DNA of 64,000 nucleotides from Neptunitalea lumnitzerae (GTDB taxonomy: Bacteria; Bacteroidota; Bacteroidia; Flavobacteriales; Flavobacteriaceae): assembly GCF_027924185.1 (NCBI RefSeq), contig NZ_BRVO01000001.1:930001-994000 (forward strand), read 5' to 3'. Positions 3,169-34,952 of this stretch are shown here, in pieces. The translations under genes and the position numbers were made by a program. Under the pieces are notes generated by a model. The model was given only the letters and a program-made list of their open reading frames with translations, was not told where the DNA came from and did not search any database. Each line of letters starts with the position of its first letter. Positions within the stretch are counted from its first letter, which is position 1.

Positions 3169-3501
3169 TACTTGAGGATTATATTATAAATAGTTTAGTT
3201 ATTAGAATTTCCGGGAATCTACAGCCTTAACTTATGAGTAACTTACATGTGTTAGAGGTTTCTGGAAATTCTTTTTTTTTGTTTTTTCATTTCATAAAAT
3301 CATTTCCGCGATTTTAATTTTGTTCTGAGCAATTGTGTATTTGTAAATAGCTTATAAACAGTTACGTATAACGTTTTTGTCTATGTTTCACCTTGTAGAG
3401 AATCATTTTATATTTGTTAAAACAAAGGTTAATAAACGTTAAGAACTGTGTAAGTGCTTAATTTTCTTAGTATTCTAGCATCAAATAAAATTTGAATTGC
3501 T
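3169..3501. other. Intergenic region with terminator and candidate regulator site
   Basis: These 333 bases hold no gene. The left part carries a terminator-like hairpin (3204-3280). Near the right end, GTTAA occurs at 3428 and 3438, exactly 10 bp apart, followed by an imperfect third copy. The arrangement resembles the triple repeats near the GLPGLI genes at 31.8 and 32.7 kb. No good TAnnTTTG box was found before 3502. Confidence 0.5.
3204..3280 (+). terminator. Probable rho-independent terminator after the gene at 2674
   Basis: The arms AGAATTTCCGG (from 3204) and CTGGAAATTCT (to 3272) pair over about 11 bp with one G-U pair. They enclose a long loop of about 45 bases and are followed by a run of nine T. 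The long loop makes this weaker than the other terminators in the window. Confidence 0.55.
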
Positions 3502-29060: not shown

Positions 29061-30551
29061 TTACTCTATCTTTTTGTATTCTAGAGAGCCTGTATGCAGT
29101 GTATTGTTTTCTACATTAAAATTTCTTTTAAGTACTCCTGTTGAGCTAGTGAAGCCTCCAGATGGGTTATTATATATCTTACCTTTTAATGTACCCCATG
29201 TAAAATAATAACATCTATCTTCTTTGGTAATTGTAATATTGGGCCAATTCTTAGTACTCTTATAAGTACCAATTAACCTGTCGTTTTCTTTGTTGTCTTT
29301 AGCAAGATCACTTTGTGATGGGTATGCAATATTGTTTTCTTTTGTGTAGCTTTTATTAAAATCTACTACTTCAGTGTTAAAAATACTATCTGCATCTTTT
29401 GTGTTTAAAAGATTATAAGCATAATTAGCTATAAGATGAGGTAGTAAATAGGCCCTGTTGTCATTAGAAAAGGCTATGATGCCAATTTTTCTATCTGGCA
29501 TGAATGAGCTATGAAAGGTAATGCCTCCTAAGTTTCCAAATCGGGTTAGTATCTTCTCGTTTTGATAATTTGCAATATCCCATCCTAAACTGTATCCGGT
29601 TCGCTTATAGGTAAAGTAAGTTCTATCTTGTTCCGTGGTGGGTTCATGAAGGTCTTTCCAGTTTTCTTGGGTTAAAAGAAGTGAGTCTTGGCGAATGTTA
29701 GCAGACATCCATTTTGCCATATCATTCATGGTAGAGATAATACCTCCAGCTGCATGCATAGTAAAATCGGTTTTGTCAAAACTTTTAAGAATAATGCTGT
29801 CGTTGCTACATAATAGGGAAGGTCTAATGGTTTCGAATTTAAAATCGCTAACATTTGCGCTGGTGTTCGACATTTTTAATGGATCGAAAATTTTGGTCTC
29901 CATTTGAGATTTCCAGGTTTTGTTTGTGTTATAATCTACCACTAACCCGGCAATAATAGGACCTATGTTGGAGTAACGAAATTTACCAGATGGATCATAG
30001 AGAAAATCTGTGTTGAGGTCTGAGATTAACTCTTCATTATTACCACTATATCCTAAGTAAGCAGTTTTCCAGGCCATGGAAGTACTGAAAGTTCCATGTG
30101 TATGGTTTAAAAGGTTTTTAAGACTAATAGCCTCTGTATCTATTTCATTCTGATAGGTAAGTTGAGGTAGGTTTTTATGGAGTGATGAGTTGAGATCTAA
30201 AGTACCTTCTTCTTCTAGTATTTTTAATAGGGTTCCTGTAAAAGATTTTGTGGATGAAGCTATGTATATAGGCGAATCTAAGTTGAGGTCTGTAGGTGTA
30301 CCGTTTAATAGCTCTCTGTTGAGTGTAAAGGAATAGGCAATTCCTTGTTCATTTACAATGGCAAATAAGATATCTCCGTGTAAATTTTTGTCTTTATAGA
30401 TGTTTGATACTTTATCTTCAAATTTCGTTGCAAATTCAGGGTGTTGTTGTTTAAATGTATCTTGAGGAGTGGGTTTATTAGGTGAAGTGCAAGAAGTTAT
30501 TAAAAAAACTGAAAGGAGTAAAACAAGAGTTGTTTTTTGAATGAATTTCAT
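29061..30551 (-). CDS. Beta-lactamase-fold serine hydrolase lipoprotein
   Basis: A 496-residue lipoprotein (lipobox LITSC, C21). The class C/DD-peptidase fold shows the nucleophile motif S99-S-T-K102 and the second motif Y193-S-N195 (FRYSNIGP). A third KTG-like motif is not obvious by eye; HSSFMP (about residue 350) lies in that region. The last about 80 residues form a separate beta domain (RLIGTYKSTKNWPNITITKED). Such proteins act as D-aminopeptidases, esterases or peptidoglycan-related hydrolases; the substrate cannot be predicted. The gene is single and convergent to the tRNA units. Confidence 0.88.
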   Translation of the reverse strand: MKFIQKTTLVLLLSVFLITSCTSPNKPTPQDTFKQQHPEFATKFEDKVSNIYKDKNLHGDILFAIVNEQGIAYSFTLNRELLNGTPTDLNLDSPIYIASSTKSFTGTLLKILEEEGTLDLNSSLHKNLPQLTYQNEIDTEAISLKNLLNHTHGTFSTSMAWKTAYLGYSGNNEELISDLNTDFLYDPSGKFRYSNIGPIIAGLVVDYNTNKTWKSQMETKIFDPLKMSNTSANVSDFKFETIRPSLLCSNDSIILKSFDKTDFTMHAAGGIISTMNDMAKWMSANIRQDSLLLTQENWKDLHEPTTEQDRTYFTYKRTGYSLGWDIANYQNEKILTRFGNLGGITFHSSFMPDRKIGIIAFSNDNRAYLLPHLIANYAYNLLNTKDADSIFNTEVVDFNKSYTKENNIAYPSQSDLAKDNKENDRLIGTYKSTKNWPNITITKEDRCYYFTWGTLKGKIYNNPSGGFTSSTGVLKRNFNVENNTLHTGSLEYKKIE

Positions 30552-30898: not shown

Positions 30899-31720
30899 TT
30901 ATTTAGATATTTCAATGGTAATTTCATTTCCATTGCGTGTTTTTTTGGTGTGCTGTTCTACCCATTGTTTCATCTTCTTATCGCTAATTTCATCAAATTC
31001 TGTTTGCGTTACTTCTTTGCCTTTGGTAGGAGCCTCAATTTCAATATCTTTTTTGTTGCTAAGTGTTACCTTGTTACAAACTAATGTTTTACTACCATCG
31101 TGTATTTCTAGTATAAGCCCTGGTAATCCTTGATAATTTTCAGGTCCGTTGCTAATGGCTATTTCCGGAGTATACCAGGCAGTAATAGTTATGGTTTCTG
31201 TGGTGTGTTCGGTAAGTTCTTTTGTGTTGCTAAAGTTTATTTTTTGATGCTCCTGTGTATAGGTAGCTGTGGCTTTATAACAGGTATAATTACCTATGGT
31301 TTTAGTTTCGGTACCCAATTGCCATTGGCGGGTACTAAGTGTATCTTTAATTAGAAATACTTTTCCCATTAGCTCAGTTTGATTGGCAAAAGAGTGCGTT
31401 TGTAGGTTTTTATAGAGGATGTCGCTTCCGCCAGCAGTCATTACAAATACACCTCCGTTTTGGGCTGCTGGGTTAGGTGTATTTAATTTTGCTTCTTGTT
31501 TGTAAACAGACTCTTTTGTGTTAAATACAAGGGTATATTCCTTTTGCATTTGGCTTTGAATTTGTGCACGTATTTTATCTTTCATTGCATCATTCATTTG
31601 AGCGTTGGATGAAGAGTCTAATTGAAACTGCATTTGTACATGTTCAAAATACGTAGCTTCCCCTTGTTGAGAAAAGCAACACTGCACTAATAACACAAAT
31701 AATAAGCATATAAATTTCAT
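30899..31720 (-). CDS. GLPGLI-family exported protein
   Basis: I use the ATG at 31720 (273 residues), which starts a clean signal peptide (MKFICLLFVLLVQCCFSQQ); the longer frame adds 26 residues of intergenic translation. The family signature is NGPENYQGLPGLILEIHDG near residue 200, preceded by WQLGTETKTIGNYTCYKA and followed by a conserved LVCNKVTL strand. GLPGLI proteins are restricted largely to Bacteroidota and have no established function. A paralogue lies directly upstream (31863), and a two-component system lies beyond it. A triple GTTAA repeat 106-130 bases upstream of the start suggests control by that system. Confidence 0.9.
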   Translation of the reverse strand: MKFICLLFVLLVQCCFSQQGEATYFEHVQMQFQLDSSSNAQMNDAMKDKIRAQIQSQMQKEYTLVFNTKESVYKQEAKLNTPNPAAQNGGVFVMTAGGSDILYKNLQTHSFANQTELMGKVFLIKDTLSTRQWQLGTETKTIGNYTCYKATATYTQEHQKINFSNTKELTEHTTETITITAWYTPEIAISNGPENYQGLPGLILEIHDGSKTLVCNKVTLSNKKDIEIEAPTKGKEVTQTEFDEISDKKMKQWVEQHTKKTRNGNEITIEISK

Positions 31721-31825
31721 AATGGTATGTTTTAAGATTGATGATGAAAATTTTTCAAGTAAAGCTTTCATAAGAAACCACCTCGAATGATGATTCAAAT
31801 ATCGTAATTGTAATTTTTGAAATAC

Positions 31826-31850
31826 GTTAATAAGGGTTAACTAGTGTTAA
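31826..31850. promoter_or_regulatory. Triple GTTAA direct repeat upstream of a GLPGLI gene
   Basis: GTTAA occurs at 31826, 31836 and 31846, exactly 10 bp apart, so all three face the same side of the helix. The core (GGGTTAACTAGTGTTAA) closely matches the repeat at 32710-32734. OmpR-family regulators typically bind such direct repeats, and one is encoded at 34266. Confidence 0.7.
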
Positions 31851-31862
31851 ACCAGGGCATGT

Positions 31863-32654
31863 TTATTTAGTAATATGTAATCCTCCTTTTCCGTCTGAGT
31901 AACGTTCGACAAATTCTCTTAGCTTTTGTGTTTTTAAGGCATCAAAGTCGGCTTGGTTGATTTCTTTACCTCTTTTCGGAATTTTAATTTCTATAGTTTC
32001 TTTATTTGATAAGGTTATTTTATTACATAGAAAGATCTTGTTATCATCATGAACTTCTAAAATTAAACCAGGTAAACCGCTGTAGTTTTCGGGACCGTTG
32101 CTTATGGGTATTTCGGGGGTGTACCAGGCAGTTACTTCAATAGTATCAATATTAGGTTCGTTGTAGGTTCTGCCGGGTATTTTTACTTCGTCTCTGTCTA
32201 CAGTGTAACTTCTGGTAGCCTTGTAGCAGGTGTAATTACCAATTGTTTTTGTTTCACTATTTAATGTCCATTTTGTAGTGGGTAAGCTATCTTTTATTAA
32301 AAAAAGTTTCCCCATAAGGTCTATTTTATACAAATAAGTTTTGGTAGTCATGTTTTTATATAAGACATCACCAGGGTTATATGAAGTAGGGAAACGATTG
32401 CTTTTTGCAGGAGTATCTAGCTGAGCATTTTGTTTGTAAACTGATTCTTTGGTGGTAAAAACAAGCGTATATTCTTTTTGGTTCCGCTTCATGGCAGCTT
32501 CTAAAATTTTGTTCTGTTCTTGTTTGCTTATTTTATTGTCAGGAGAAAAACTAATACCTGTGCTTATACGCATAAAGTAAGTTGCTTCTCCTTGTTGAGC
32601 AAAGCTTAAGCTAAGGGTTATTGTCCAAAGAGTTGCAGCTAATAAATATTTCAT
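31863..32654 (-). CDS. GLPGLI-family exported protein (paralogue)
   Basis: A 263-residue protein with a signal peptide (cleavage near SFAQ, about residue 19). It shares the layout of the gene at 30899: KEYTLVFTTKESVYKQNAQLDTP, WTLNSETKTIGNYTCYKA, and the signature NGPENYSGLPGLILEVHDDNK, followed by FLCNKITL. The two differ in the middle loop and in the C-terminus. The gene is divergent from the two-component kinase at 32774, and the 119-base gap between them holds the triple GTTAA repeat. The function is unknown; being encoded with a sensor kinase suggests an envelope role. Confidence 0.9.
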   Translation of the reverse strand: MKYLLAATLWTITLSLSFAQQGEATYFMRISTGISFSPDNKISKQEQNKILEAAMKRNQKEYTLVFTTKESVYKQNAQLDTPAKSNRFPTSYNPGDVLYKNMTTKTYLYKIDLMGKLFLIKDSLPTTKWTLNSETKTIGNYTCYKATRSYTVDRDEVKIPGRTYNEPNIDTIEVTAWYTPEIPISNGPENYSGLPGLILEVHDDNKIFLCNKITLSNKETIEIKIPKRGKEINQADFDALKTQKLREFVERYSDGKGGLHITK

Positions 32655-32709
32655 AACAAGGTTTGTTTAATTGTTGAGTTAAAATTCGGGTTTAATTGTG
32701 TTGGAATAG

Positions 32710-32734
32710 GTTAACTACTGTTAACGAGTGTTAA
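32710..32734. promoter_or_regulatory. Triple GTTAA direct repeat in the GLPGLI/kinase divergent promoter
   Basis: GTTAAC occurs at 32710, 32720 and 32730 with an exact 10-bp period. On the minus strand the block reads TTAACACTCGTTAACAGT followed by a third copy, close to the block at 31826-31850. It lies 56 bases before the GLPGLI start (32654) and 40 bases before the kinase start (32774), a good place to control both. Confidence 0.75.
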
Positions 32735-32761: not shown

Positions 32762-32769
32762 TACTTTTG
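32762..32769 (+). promoter_or_regulatory. -7 element almost touching the kinase start codon
   Basis: TACTTTTG (32762-32769) matches the TAnnTTTG consensus and ends four bases before the ATG at 32774. If used, transcription would begin at or next to the start codon, giving a leaderless message. No TTG box is seen 17-23 bases upstream; the GTTAA repeats occupy that area instead. Confidence 0.5.
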
Positions 32770-32773
32770 AGGT

Positions 32774-34273
32774 ATGAATAACCGTAAGTATCAATATATT
32801 CTGTATATTATTATTAGTACCATTGTGCTCACTTTGGCAGTACAGATGTATTGGAACTATAAAAGTTACGTACTTAATAAAGAGCAGTTTAAGAAAGATG
32901 TTCAGTTGGTGTTAGATAATGCTTTAGAAAAGTATTATGTAGACTTGGCTTCTAATTCTAGTGTAACCTTATTTTCAAAAGCTCAGGTAGCTTCTGAAAA
33001 AAGTAACGGACTCCCTACTATAGACAAGTTAGCGGAACGCTTGAATGATAGTATGTTGGTGCAATGGAATAGAGGTGTTAAAAATGATAGCTTTATTCAT
33101 GTAGGAAAAGATGGGGGGATAACCAATCAAGGTGCCAGAATAGGAAGTTATCTAGAAGATAGTTTGGCTATAACGCCAGATAAAATTAAGAGCATTCATG
33201 TGTATAAGAATGACACTGTTGCTAATAATTTGCAACAAAGAGTTACTTCTATATTTATTTCTATTCAGGAAGATGAGATAGATTTTAATCGTTTAGATTC
33301 ATTGATAACTATAGGGTTACAAGAAAAATCATTTGATTTTCCGTATGCTTTAACACAGTATGAAAACGATTCTTTAGTGAATACTTTTTCTGGAGCAGTG
33401 ATGCAGCCCACTTTCTTAAAAATGGAATCGGTATCTAATTACTTAAAAGAAGACGAATCATTACAAATACATTTCCCAAACAAAACCAGTATTATTTTAA
33501 AATATAGTTTGGTAGGTATCAGTATATCGGTGGTGTTGGCAATTATTATTATAGGATGTTTGGTGTATCTGCTCTACATTATTAAACAACAAAAAGAGTT
33601 GTCTGAAATTAAAGATGACTTTTTAGGGAATATAACGCATGAGTTTAAAACCCCTATAGCTACTATTTATGCTGCTCTAGAGGGTATGGATAACTTTAAT
33701 GCATTAGAAGATAAGGCAAAGGCTAAACGGTACGTACAGCGTTCTAGGCAGCAATTGGATAAGCTTAGTGGTATGGTAGAGAAAATATTAGAGACCGCCA
33801 GTTTAGAGAGTTCTCGTATTCATTTAGAAAAAGCACCTGTAGTAGTACAGCAACTTTTAGAAAGTTTAGTGCTAACCTATAAGATGTCGGTAGTAAATAA
33901 ACGCATTAGGTTAAAAGTAACGGCTACTAAAACTATGGTTAATGCAGATGTATTTCATTTAGAAAATGCATTGAATAATGTATTAGATAATGCTGTTAAG
34001 TATGGGGGTGATAATATTGATGTTACTGTGCAGGATGGTGTAGAAGAGGTATTCATAAACATTTCAGATAATGGAGGTTCATTAACCACACAGCAAGCAG
34101 AGCGAATATTTGAGAAGTTTTACAGGGTACCAAAAGGAAATGTGCATGATGTTAAAGGGTATGGCATTGGGCTTTATTATACCAAAAATATTATAGAAAA
34201 ACATGGAGGAACTATACAGGTGTTTGTAGGTTCTGGTAAAACAACTTTCGAAATTAAATTGCCTTATGAGTGA
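32774..34273 (+). CDS. Two-component sensor histidine kinase (membrane-bound)
   Basis: A 499-residue kinase with membrane helices at about 8-26 and 246-270 enclosing a periplasmic sensor of about 220 residues. Then follow a HisKA domain with H289 (GNITHEFKTPIATIYA), an N box (LNNVLDNAVKYGG), a G1 box (ISDNGG, with a shortened following loop) and a G2 box (GYGIGLYYTKNIIEKHGG). It overlaps the response regulator by eight bases, so the pair is translationally coupled. The sensor domain is not recognised. The adjacent divergent GLPGLI genes and shared repeats suggest that it reports on the envelope. Confidence 0.93.
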   Translation: MNNRKYQYILYIIISTIVLTLAVQMYWNYKSYVLNKEQFKKDVQLVLDNALEKYYVDLASNSSVTLFSKAQVASEKSNGLPTIDKLAERLNDSMLVQWNRGVKNDSFIHVGKDGGITNQGARIGSYLEDSLAITPDKIKSIHVYKNDTVANNLQQRVTSIFISIQEDEIDFNRLDSLITIGLQEKSFDFPYALTQYENDSLVNTFSGAVMQPTFLKMESVSNYLKEDESLQIHFPNKTSIILKYSLVGISISVVLAIIIIGCLVYLLYIIKQQKELSEIKDDFLGNITHEFKTPIATIYAALEGMDNFNALEDKAKAKRYVQRSRQQLDKLSGMVEKILETASLESSRIHLEKAPVVVQQLLESLVLTYKMSVVNKRIRLKVTATKTMVNADVFHLENALNNVLDNAVKYGGDNIDVTVQDGVEEVFINISDNGGSLTTQQAERIFEKFYRVPKGNVHDVKGYGIGLYYTKNIIEKHGGTIQVFVGSGKTTFEIKLPYE

Positions 34274-34952
34274 AAAAATAACCATTCTGTTGGCAGAAGA
34301 TGAAGAGGTGCTGGCAGAGATTGTAAAGGAGAGTTTAGAAACTCGGAATTTTAATGTGATTCACTGTGCTAATGGTAGTGAAGTGCTTTCTGCTTATCAG
34401 GAGTATATGCCAGCGTTATTAGTGTTAGATGTAATGATGCCTATTAAGGATGGTTTTACTGTGGCACATGAGATACGAAATATTGATGCTGAAATACCTA
34501 TTATATTTTTAACGGCCAAATCACAAATTAAAGATGTGGTAAAAGGGTTTAATGTTGGTGGAAATGATTACCTAAAGAAACCTTTTAGTATGGAAGAACT
34601 TATTGTGAGAATACACAATTTGTTGCGTTACAATATAAAAGAAGAAAAGGAATCTACGGGGATTGTTATAGGAGATTATATTTTAGATGTAGATAAGCAA
34701 ACATTACAGTATAAGGAAGAGGGAGGTGTAGTGTTAACGCATAAAGAAGCGCAACTTTTATTTCATTTAGCTAGTGTGAAAAACCAGTTGTTAGAGCGAA
34801 CGTATATTTTGAACGAGCTTTGGGACACGGATGATTTTTTTACTGCTAGGAGTATGGATGTTTACATTACCAAATTGCGCAAAAAGCTAAAGAAAGATGA
34901 ACGTGTTAGTATTATTAATGTGAGGGGCTTAGGGTATAAACTTATTTGTTAA
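34266..34952 (+). CDS. OmpR/PhoB-family response regulator
   Basis: A 228-residue regulator. The receiver has E11-D12, the phospho-acceptor D55 (LVLDVMMP), T83 and K105. The C-terminal winged helix (about 135-228) has LTHKEAQLLFHLASVKNQLLERTYILNELWDTDDFFTARSMDVYITKLRKKL and ends VRGLGYKLIC. It is the partner of the upstream kinase and the best candidate to bind the 10-bp-spaced GTTAA repeats at 32710 and 31826. Confidence 0.95.
   Translation: MSEKITILLAEDEEVLAEIVKESLETRNFNVIHCANGSEVLSAYQEYMPALLVLDVMMPIKDGFTVAHEIRNIDAEIPIIFLTAKSQIKDVVKGFNVGGNDYLKKPFSMEELIVRIHNLLRYNIKEEKESTGIVIGDYILDVDKQTLQYKEEGGVVLTHKEAQLLFHLASVKNQLLERTYILNELWDTDDFFTARSMDVYITKLRKKLKKDERVSIINVRGLGYKLIC

Follow-up and report, generated by a model that had tools for sequence, protein, structure and literature searches.

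The window analysed here, a 64,000-nucleotide stretch of the Neptunitalea lumnitzerae genome, contains two tandem GLPGLI genes and, divergent from them, a histidine kinase gene followed by the gene of an OmpR/PhoB-type response regulator (Table 1). GLPGLI proteins form a family without known function that is common in Flavobacteriaceae and is known from Porphyromonas and Riemerella. Both window proteins, as well as the product of a third gene elsewhere in the genome, exceed the TIGR01200 cut-off of 50 bits, and the two are 47% identical to each other. An in-frame ATG at 31771 would lengthen the N-terminus of GLPGLI gene 1, and the N-terminus of gene 2 looks, by eye, like a signal peptide. Downstream of the pair, on the same strand, lies an ordinary-looking gene for a serine hydrolase of the beta-lactamase family (29061-30551; PF00144).

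The regulator gene overlaps the kinase gene by 8 bp, and its product is of the OmpR/PhoB type as judged by matches to PF00072 (92.3 bits) and PF00486 (69 bits). Membership in several named families has been rejected. As an RprY equivalog (NF051850) the regulator scores 249.8 bits, below the cut-off of 370, though this is the best model among those shown. It reaches 96.3 bits as ArcA (cut-off 334) and 109.1 of 341 bits as CpxR, and the kinase reaches 91 of 486 bits as CpxA. The sensor region of the kinase comprises, by eye, about 225 residues between two hydrophobic segments. Its predicted model is poor (pLDDT 69.7, with residues ~45-130 mostly below 50) and finds no Foldseek match below 0.001; we therefore refrain from deriving a signal from it.

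Table 1. Genes, boxes and predicted promoter elements at the locus, with the third box of the genome
Feature	Position	Strand	Sequence	Remarks
GLPGLI gene 1	30899..31720	-		273 aa from ATG 31720; TIGR01200 194.3 bits (cut-off 50)
Predicted -7 element, GLPGLI gene 1	31796..31803	-	GATATTTG	exactly at the conserved offset from box 1
Box 1, triple GTTAA	31826..31850	+	GTTAATAAGGGTTAACTAGTGTTAA	upstream of GLPGLI gene 1 (the tandem's other copy)
GLPGLI gene 2	31863..32654	-		263 aa; TIGR01200 183.3 bits (cut-off 50); PF09697
Predicted -7 element, GLPGLI gene 2	32680..32687	-	GAATTTTA	at the conserved offset, degenerate: no AnnTTTG match
Box 2, triple GTTAA	32710..32734	+	GTTAACTACTGTTAACGAGTGTTAA	between GLPGLI gene 2 and the divergent histidine kinase gene
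Predicted -7 element, kinase-regulator operon	32762..32769	+	TACTTTTG	
Histidine kinase	32774..34273	+		HisKA, HATPase_c
OmpR/PhoB-type response regulator	34266..34952	+		Response_reg, Trans_reg_C
Third box	G000:C1:1562529-1562554			~110 bp before the start codon (ATG) of the third GLPGLI gene

A pattern search of the window finds GTTAA-N5-GTTAA-N5-GTTAA exactly at both boxes, which have the core GTTAACNAGTGTTAA in common, just as the earlier note had described them (three GTTAA copies at 10-bp spacing with a matching core). Pairs of GTTAA at 10 bp number ten on both strands together, against 0.70 expected (sd 0.81), a figure that agrees with the claim of less than one chance pair per window. 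None of 100 shuffles of the window reaches ten. Four of these pairs lie elsewhere in the window, at 3428, 23736, 36188 and 50685. Triples give three matches (the third is box 2 read on the reverse strand) versus 0.00 expected from 100 shuffles. The conclusion that two triples are not random thus holds for the count, but the independence of the two boxes that it implied has been rejected. In a tree of 93 GLPGLI proteins the two window genes are sister copies (100/89), so their boxes are probably not independent, and one gene duplication probably lies behind both.

The genome scan for the triple repeat that had been suggested was run on the 3.85-Mb genome of N. lumnitzerae. The exact triple occurs only at box 1 and box 2, and the reversed control gives no match. 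A 26-bp consensus with up to three mismatches adds one site, so that there is one upstream of each of the three GLPGLI genes and again none in the reversed control. GLPGLI genes are counted here as TIGR01200 matches over the family cut-off; the third gene scores 171.8 bits and a fourth match, at 19.8 bits, falls below it. At all three sites the GTTAA words and the GLPGLI gene are on opposite strands. The third site is not a blind prediction, because it had already been met as one of six triples with one mismatch and the consensus was written after that, from an alignment of 74 sites that includes the window site. The bare triple with up to two mismatches has 41 matches in this genome versus 17 for the reversed control, and therefore such loose matches mean little.

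Across 249 genomes of the family, the exact triple has been found in 90 and the reversed pattern in 12. Among the 30 exact-triple loci sampled first, 19 have a kinase match, 18 of these with GLPGLI as well, and 11 have neither. The 249 genomes hold 78 kinase orthologues (the window's own and 77 others) above a cut that we chose at 199 bits; the next score is 191.9 bits and apparently belongs to a paralogue group. A divergent GLPGLI gene is present at 73 of the 78 kinase loci. None is in view at L156, L158, L166, L170 and L171; at L156 and L171 a contig end interrupts the locus. The box is exact at 70 of the 78 loci and has one mismatch at four more (74/78). At L168, one of the four loci counted as lacking it, the kinase frame is split and an exact box was found later; this locus (also L321, genome G205) has box and GLPGLI gene together with a kinase in two open frames, which is either a broken kinase or a sequencing error. 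The 74 aligned sites show little or no variation in the three GTTAA words, and conservation extends to the linkers; the consensus is roughly GTTAAC-N-AGT-GTTAACG-W-GT-GTTAAC-CGATT.

The second set consists of the best 80 of 541 kinase relatives and spans Neptunitalea, Pustulibacterium, Winogradskyella, Aquimarina, Polaribacter, Kordia and others. It overlaps the 78-locus set, and counts from the two are therefore not independent. GLPGLI and regulator genes are present at all of these best 80 loci and the exact box at 79 (L263 lacks it), with 39-42 bases between box and kinase ATG in 75 of the 79. In a sample of the whole phylum, the extended box has been found in 10 of 247 genomes, six of them from the same family (Flavobacteriaceae). 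Two genomes from a second family of the class, G433 and G354, have box, GLPGLI gene and kinase, and in G433 box and GLPGLI gene are doubled as in the window. Two more, from a further family, have the GTTAA triple between the gene of a kinase relative and a divergent gene for a secreted-looking protein other than GLPGLI (L335 and L336). The protein at L335 has 202 aa and no Pfam match. The divergent box layout may thus extend beyond GLPGLI.

The triples could also have arisen by chance in AT-rich DNA. GTTAA words are common, and both the reversed triple in 12 genomes and the many loose triples of N. lumnitzerae agree with such an origin. On the other hand, no triple is expected in the window by shuffling, the position of the box and its consensus are kept across genera, and for the box beside the kinase a chance origin is already refuted. 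We consider it extremely improbable.

The box occurs where the kinase does. With up to three mismatches allowed, all of 30 genomes with the kinase, hand-picked from the top of the 78-locus list, contain the extended box, and none of 30 without it, hand-picked among nearly complete genomes, does. GLPGLI genes occur in 30 and 21 of these genomes, respectively, which indicates that the box does not go with GLPGLI as such. In 27 of the 30 kinase-bearing genomes there is only one extended-box site.

A position weight matrix gives a similar distribution. A box lies within 500 bp of the first GLPGLI gene in 68 of 73 kinase loci. Scores of at least 15 are reached at 2 of 60 tandem second or third copies and at 1 of 42 distant copies in kinase-bearing genomes (2 of 42 at 14.9 or more, counting the third gene of N. 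lumnitzerae itself with 14.9). None of the 34 GLPGLI genes in kinase-lacking genomes has a box. The pseudocounts of this matrix are small and its penalties harsh, so that its scores serve to rank sites and the shuffled null (best -10.3) overstates the gap. The exact box was seen at 1 of 97 tandem copies in the best 80 of 541 loci; tandem copies can share the promoter of the first copy. As the box is missing from the majority of tandem or distant GLPGLI genes, a general GLPGLI regulon has been rejected. The regulatory context claimed for GLPGLI proteins is supported for the operon beside the kinase, and not for GLPGLI genes in general.

Exact triples also lie away from the system, and some of these are perhaps due to chance or are sites of other regulators. 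At L312 (box 2682) and L317 (box 2608) the triple has an aspartyl-protease-like gene on one side and, on the other, a gene for a stand-alone winged helix (Trans_reg_C), the domains having been tested in L317 only, and this is possibly a one-component system with a similar box. At L323 (box 2622) it precedes a gene for a secreted-looking LTXXQ (Spy/CpxP-type) protein that falls just below the Pfam cut-off.

RprY-like regulators are widespread. A regulator of the same DNA-binding family encoded elsewhere could read the box, in which case its linkage to the kinase would be a by-product of operon inheritance, and the similar boxes that precede other genes in some genomes, such as L312 and L317, would fit this explanation. 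It is nevertheless very unlikely, given that no kinase-lacking genome of the 30 has even a box with three mismatches, although 21 of them have GLPGLI genes, and that the separate GLPGLI locus of Neptunitalea, a genus with the kinase, bears a box.

The surroundings of the box resemble two divergent promoters. The -7 box of flavobacterial sigma-A is given as TAnnTTTG at -12 to -5 (PMC9723704). It has been surveyed in 76 of the best 80 of 541 loci, those with an exact box in the stretch examined. On the kinase side, TAnnTTTG is present at an offset of 27-29 from the box in 74 of the 76 loci. On the GLPGLI side, AnnTTTG is found at one offset, about 22-23 bases from the box, in 72 of the 76, and the sole other matches in the survey are two at offset 16 on this side. 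In N. lumnitzerae an exact AnnTTTG is present at only one of the three GLPGLI promoters, that of gene 1. The third GLPGLI gene has no exact -7 element, and TTACTTTA stands at the corresponding place in the alignment. From the offsets of the -7 elements, the box would end near -35 for the GLPGLI operon and near -41 for the kinase. These positions are a usual place of activators of the OmpR/PhoB type. The predicted start of the kinase transcript falls on the ATG at 32774. The -7 element ends four bases before this ATG, from which a leaderless kinase mRNA is predicted, and most relatives among the best 80 of 541 keep this spacing. For GLPGLI genes 2 and 1, transcripts are predicted to begin near 32675 and 31791, respectively. 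Leaderless mRNAs make up just 5.5% in F. psychrophilum (PMC9723704).

Based on these observations, the proposal of the earlier note that the repeats tie the GLPGLI genes to the two-component system beside them is supported in several ways: the layout is conserved far beyond N. lumnitzerae, the distances between boxes and -7 elements are fixed on either side, and a box accompanies each of the three GLPGLI genes of N. lumnitzerae. The layout, the fixed spacing, the co-occurrence with the kinase and the three-of-three match in the genome are observed. Conservation by itself does not name the binder; its identity, activation rather than repression and a role of phosphorylation are what we infer. 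With this in mind, the triple repeat is very probably the binding and autoregulatory site of the adjacent OmpR-type regulator, which is predicted from the sequence to activate both divergent operons.

The same regulator could also act through the box by repression, or by turning one side off while the other fires. One box serves two promoters, and in the PhoP deletion mutant of R. anatipestifer two GLPGLI genes are up and three down (PMC9603813). A box that ends near -35 and -41 overlaps neither the -7 elements nor the predicted start, which speaks against repression, and we regard this mode of action as unlikely.

In the proposed mechanism, the spacing of about one helical turn between the three GTTAA half-sites would let regulator protomers bind head to tail on the same face of the DNA. 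From its place just upstream of the -7 elements, the phosphorylated regulator would activate two divergent sigma-A promoters. The outcome would be positive autoregulation of the kinase-regulator operon and expression of the GLPGLI operon as its output. This second operon would comprise a small secreted protein first in many species, then the GLPGLI genes and usually, as the last member, an outer-membrane gene of the CarboxypepD_reg/TonB type.

Relatives of the outer-membrane gene that follows the third GLPGLI gene have been searched by tblastn, as a strict sequence pattern had found the gene at only 21 of 67 loci and was replaced. Within the best 80 of 541 loci such a relative stands after the last GLPGLI gene in 76 of the 78 that have room for it (two have none). 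The two without it are Neptunitalea chrysea and Pustulibacterium marinum, which are the best kinase matches. In these two species and in N. lumnitzerae, a GLPGLI gene and this outer-membrane gene are present at a separate locus. In N. lumnitzerae, the only one of the three in which the domains were tested, the outer-membrane protein has a CarboxypepD_reg domain and a weak Plug match, and the pair sits behind the genes of a LytTR-domain regulator and its kinase. The separate locus bears a box in N. lumnitzerae and N. chrysea. The distant GLPGLI gene of P. marinum has a decayed box with a matrix score of -9, which is not found with three mismatches. That a separated GLPGLI/outer-membrane pair has its own box speaks for a function of the box.

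The gap between box and GLPGLI gene exceeds 200 bp in 20 of 78 loci. In 17 of the 20 it contains a reading frame of 113-162 aa in the same orientation as GLPGLI, most of these frames beginning with what looks like a signal peptide; of the remaining three, one has a 249-aa thioredoxin-like protein and two have nothing clear. The small protein takes the promoter-proximal place at L096, L110, L112, L116, L119, L127, L134, L137, L143, L145, L147 and others. Many of these small gap proteins have a motif around VDSAEDI...CNG.MSNGKK...GNSND...KKIRKAAINYYN, and the four that were tested match no Pfam family over its cut-off. At L104 an AhpC/TSA thioredoxin-like protein replaces the small protein, and the boxes of L313 and L315 also adjoin such genes.

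The tree of GLPGLI proteins has been built from the proteins of 27 of the 78 kinase loci, those of the window, and distant genes or genes of kinase-lacking genomes above 200 bits. One clade (100/100) holds 25 of 26 first genes, both window genes, the gene of L114 and two genes from kinase-lacking genomes. The L114 gene was counted as a second gene, its "first" being a short fragment. The third GLPGLI gene of N. lumnitzerae falls in the other clade, together with the corresponding genes of N. chrysea and P. marinum (100/100). N. chrysea has one GLPGLI copy at the kinase locus.

In N. lumnitzerae the GLPGLI gene would thus have been duplicated together with its box. Box 1 could be a mere by-product of this tandem duplication and functionless by itself. 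The sister relationship of the two genes, the single copy of N. chrysea and the rarity of boxes at tandem copies elsewhere (the 1 of 97 exact cases above) are in line with this. However, box 1 and GATATTTG have stayed intact at the conserved spacing despite a protein identity of 47%, and G433, from another family, shows the same doubling. A functionless box 1 is therefore unlikely. The duplicated boxed gene and the boxed distant pair give a predicted regulon that consists of the two-component system and all three GLPGLI genes.

The predicted GLPGLI model (pLDDT 86.9) gives some indication of what the operon may do. Searched by sequence, solved structures yielded no credible match to GLPGLI. 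By structure, the model comes closest to the N-terminal part of PNGase F-II (Foldseek 1e-6, Z about 17) and next to an uncharacterised Thermus protein (Z 11.2). Over residues ~19-234, the Z scores are 10.7 for VioE, 10.5 for LolA, 10.3 for EPDR1, 10.1 for RseB and 9.5 for MucB, with an identity of about 10% to LolA-type structures; RseB is absent among the 50 best Foldseek rows. According to PMC6363788, LolA, LolB, VioE, RseB and EPDR1 share the LolA-type fold, in which lipid binding is frequent but not universal. The modelled GLPGLI structure is predicted to have this beta-clam fold of the LolA/LolB/RseB superfamily, an assignment that concerns the fold only. MucB and RseB are described as periplasmic regulators that bind lipid signals (PMC7400510). 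The model is like RseB/MucB and LolA/LolB in its LolA-type fold, whereas the C-terminal domain of RseB and an RseA-like partner have not been seen for GLPGLI. If the model is right, the fold would point to the handling of lipids or lipoproteins at the envelope.

Co-evolution between GLPGLI and the kinase has been measured at 71 loci. GLPGLI-A correlates with the sensor domain, beyond the kinase core and the regulator, with a partial r of 0.19 (3 of 500 permutations as high). The values are 0.19 with the kinase core (8 of 500) and 0.17 with the regulator (26 of 500), and that of GLPGLI-B with the sensor domain is 0.07 (61 of 500). The co-evolution of GLPGLI-A and sensor is weak and not specific.

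Taken together, the fold, the one-site regulon in 27 of 30 genomes and the divergent secreted partner kept by the kinase suggest a reading that we put forward tentatively and hold to be more doubtful than probable. The GLPGLI proteins of the operon would be periplasmic ligand sensors or chaperones with a LolA/RseB fold, devoted to the neighbouring kinase, induced by it through the box and reporting back to it. What they report would be a lipid, lipoprotein or outer-membrane defect, and they would be a Bacteroidota counterpart of CpxP/RseB assembled from different components. Such feedback of GLPGLI on the kinase, like that of CpxP on CpxA or RseB on RseA, would be the most interesting step of the mechanism. 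In the distant family mentioned above, another secreted partner stands opposite the kinase relative in the place of GLPGLI; secretion of the divergent protein was judged by eye from N-termini. A narrow conserved regulon and a candidate binding site make GLPGLI function tractable, and finding what fires the kinase would tell when GLPGLI is needed.

In the open-access literature, as far as its text was available, the GTTAA triple, the divergent GLPGLI-kinase layout and the GLPGLI fold were not found described. The Pfam name Porph_ging has no match in the open-access full texts, and the term GLPGLI also occurs in PMC5771137. However, GLPGLI genes are already listed among the targets of two other two-component regulators. 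One is the HaeSR system of P. gingivalis (PG0719/PG0720), in which the GLPGLI genes PG1492 and PG1908 are down in the PG0720 mutant (PMC8757827) and the regulator binds its own promoter (PMC3764172). Its gene order is regulator then kinase, unlike that of the window (PMC8757827), and the available text of the two papers yielded no repeat box (PMC8757827, PMC3764172).

The other is PhoPR of R. anatipestifer. Its PhoP motif, from DAP-seq and RNA-seq, is ArcA-like with TTTAACA as the most conserved part, and PhoP also binds in front of its own operon; GLPGLI genes make up 5 of its 50 direct targets (PMC9603813). The box would give GLPGLI a regulatory context, as the earlier note had claimed, but in view of these five direct PhoP targets the context is not wholly new (PMC9603813). 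The PhoP data comprise 583 peaks, compared with one to three box sites here. No R. anatipestifer locus is among the best 80 of 541 kinase relatives. The ArcA box of enterobacteria consists of GTTA direct repeats about one helical turn apart, GTTAATTAAATGTTA (PMC12584642). The triple shares repeats of this type, although the genes of the system are different and the regulator falls below the ArcA cut-off.

In the Cpx system of enterobacteria, the CpxR box is GTAAA-N4-8-GTAAA, phosphorylated CpxR has a footprint between divergent genes, and CpxP restrains CpxA (PMC3158067). The system here is like CpxA-CpxR/cpxP in that a two-component operon is divergent from the gene of a secreted protein, with a repeat box between them. 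By predicted secretion, this layout is found at all of the best 80 of 541 loci, 79 of them with the exact box. The box itself differs, being GTTAA in triple and nearly invariant in 74 sites instead of GTAAA repeats. CpxP is small and helical, and GLPGLI, with about 260 aa and a LolA-type model, is unlike it.
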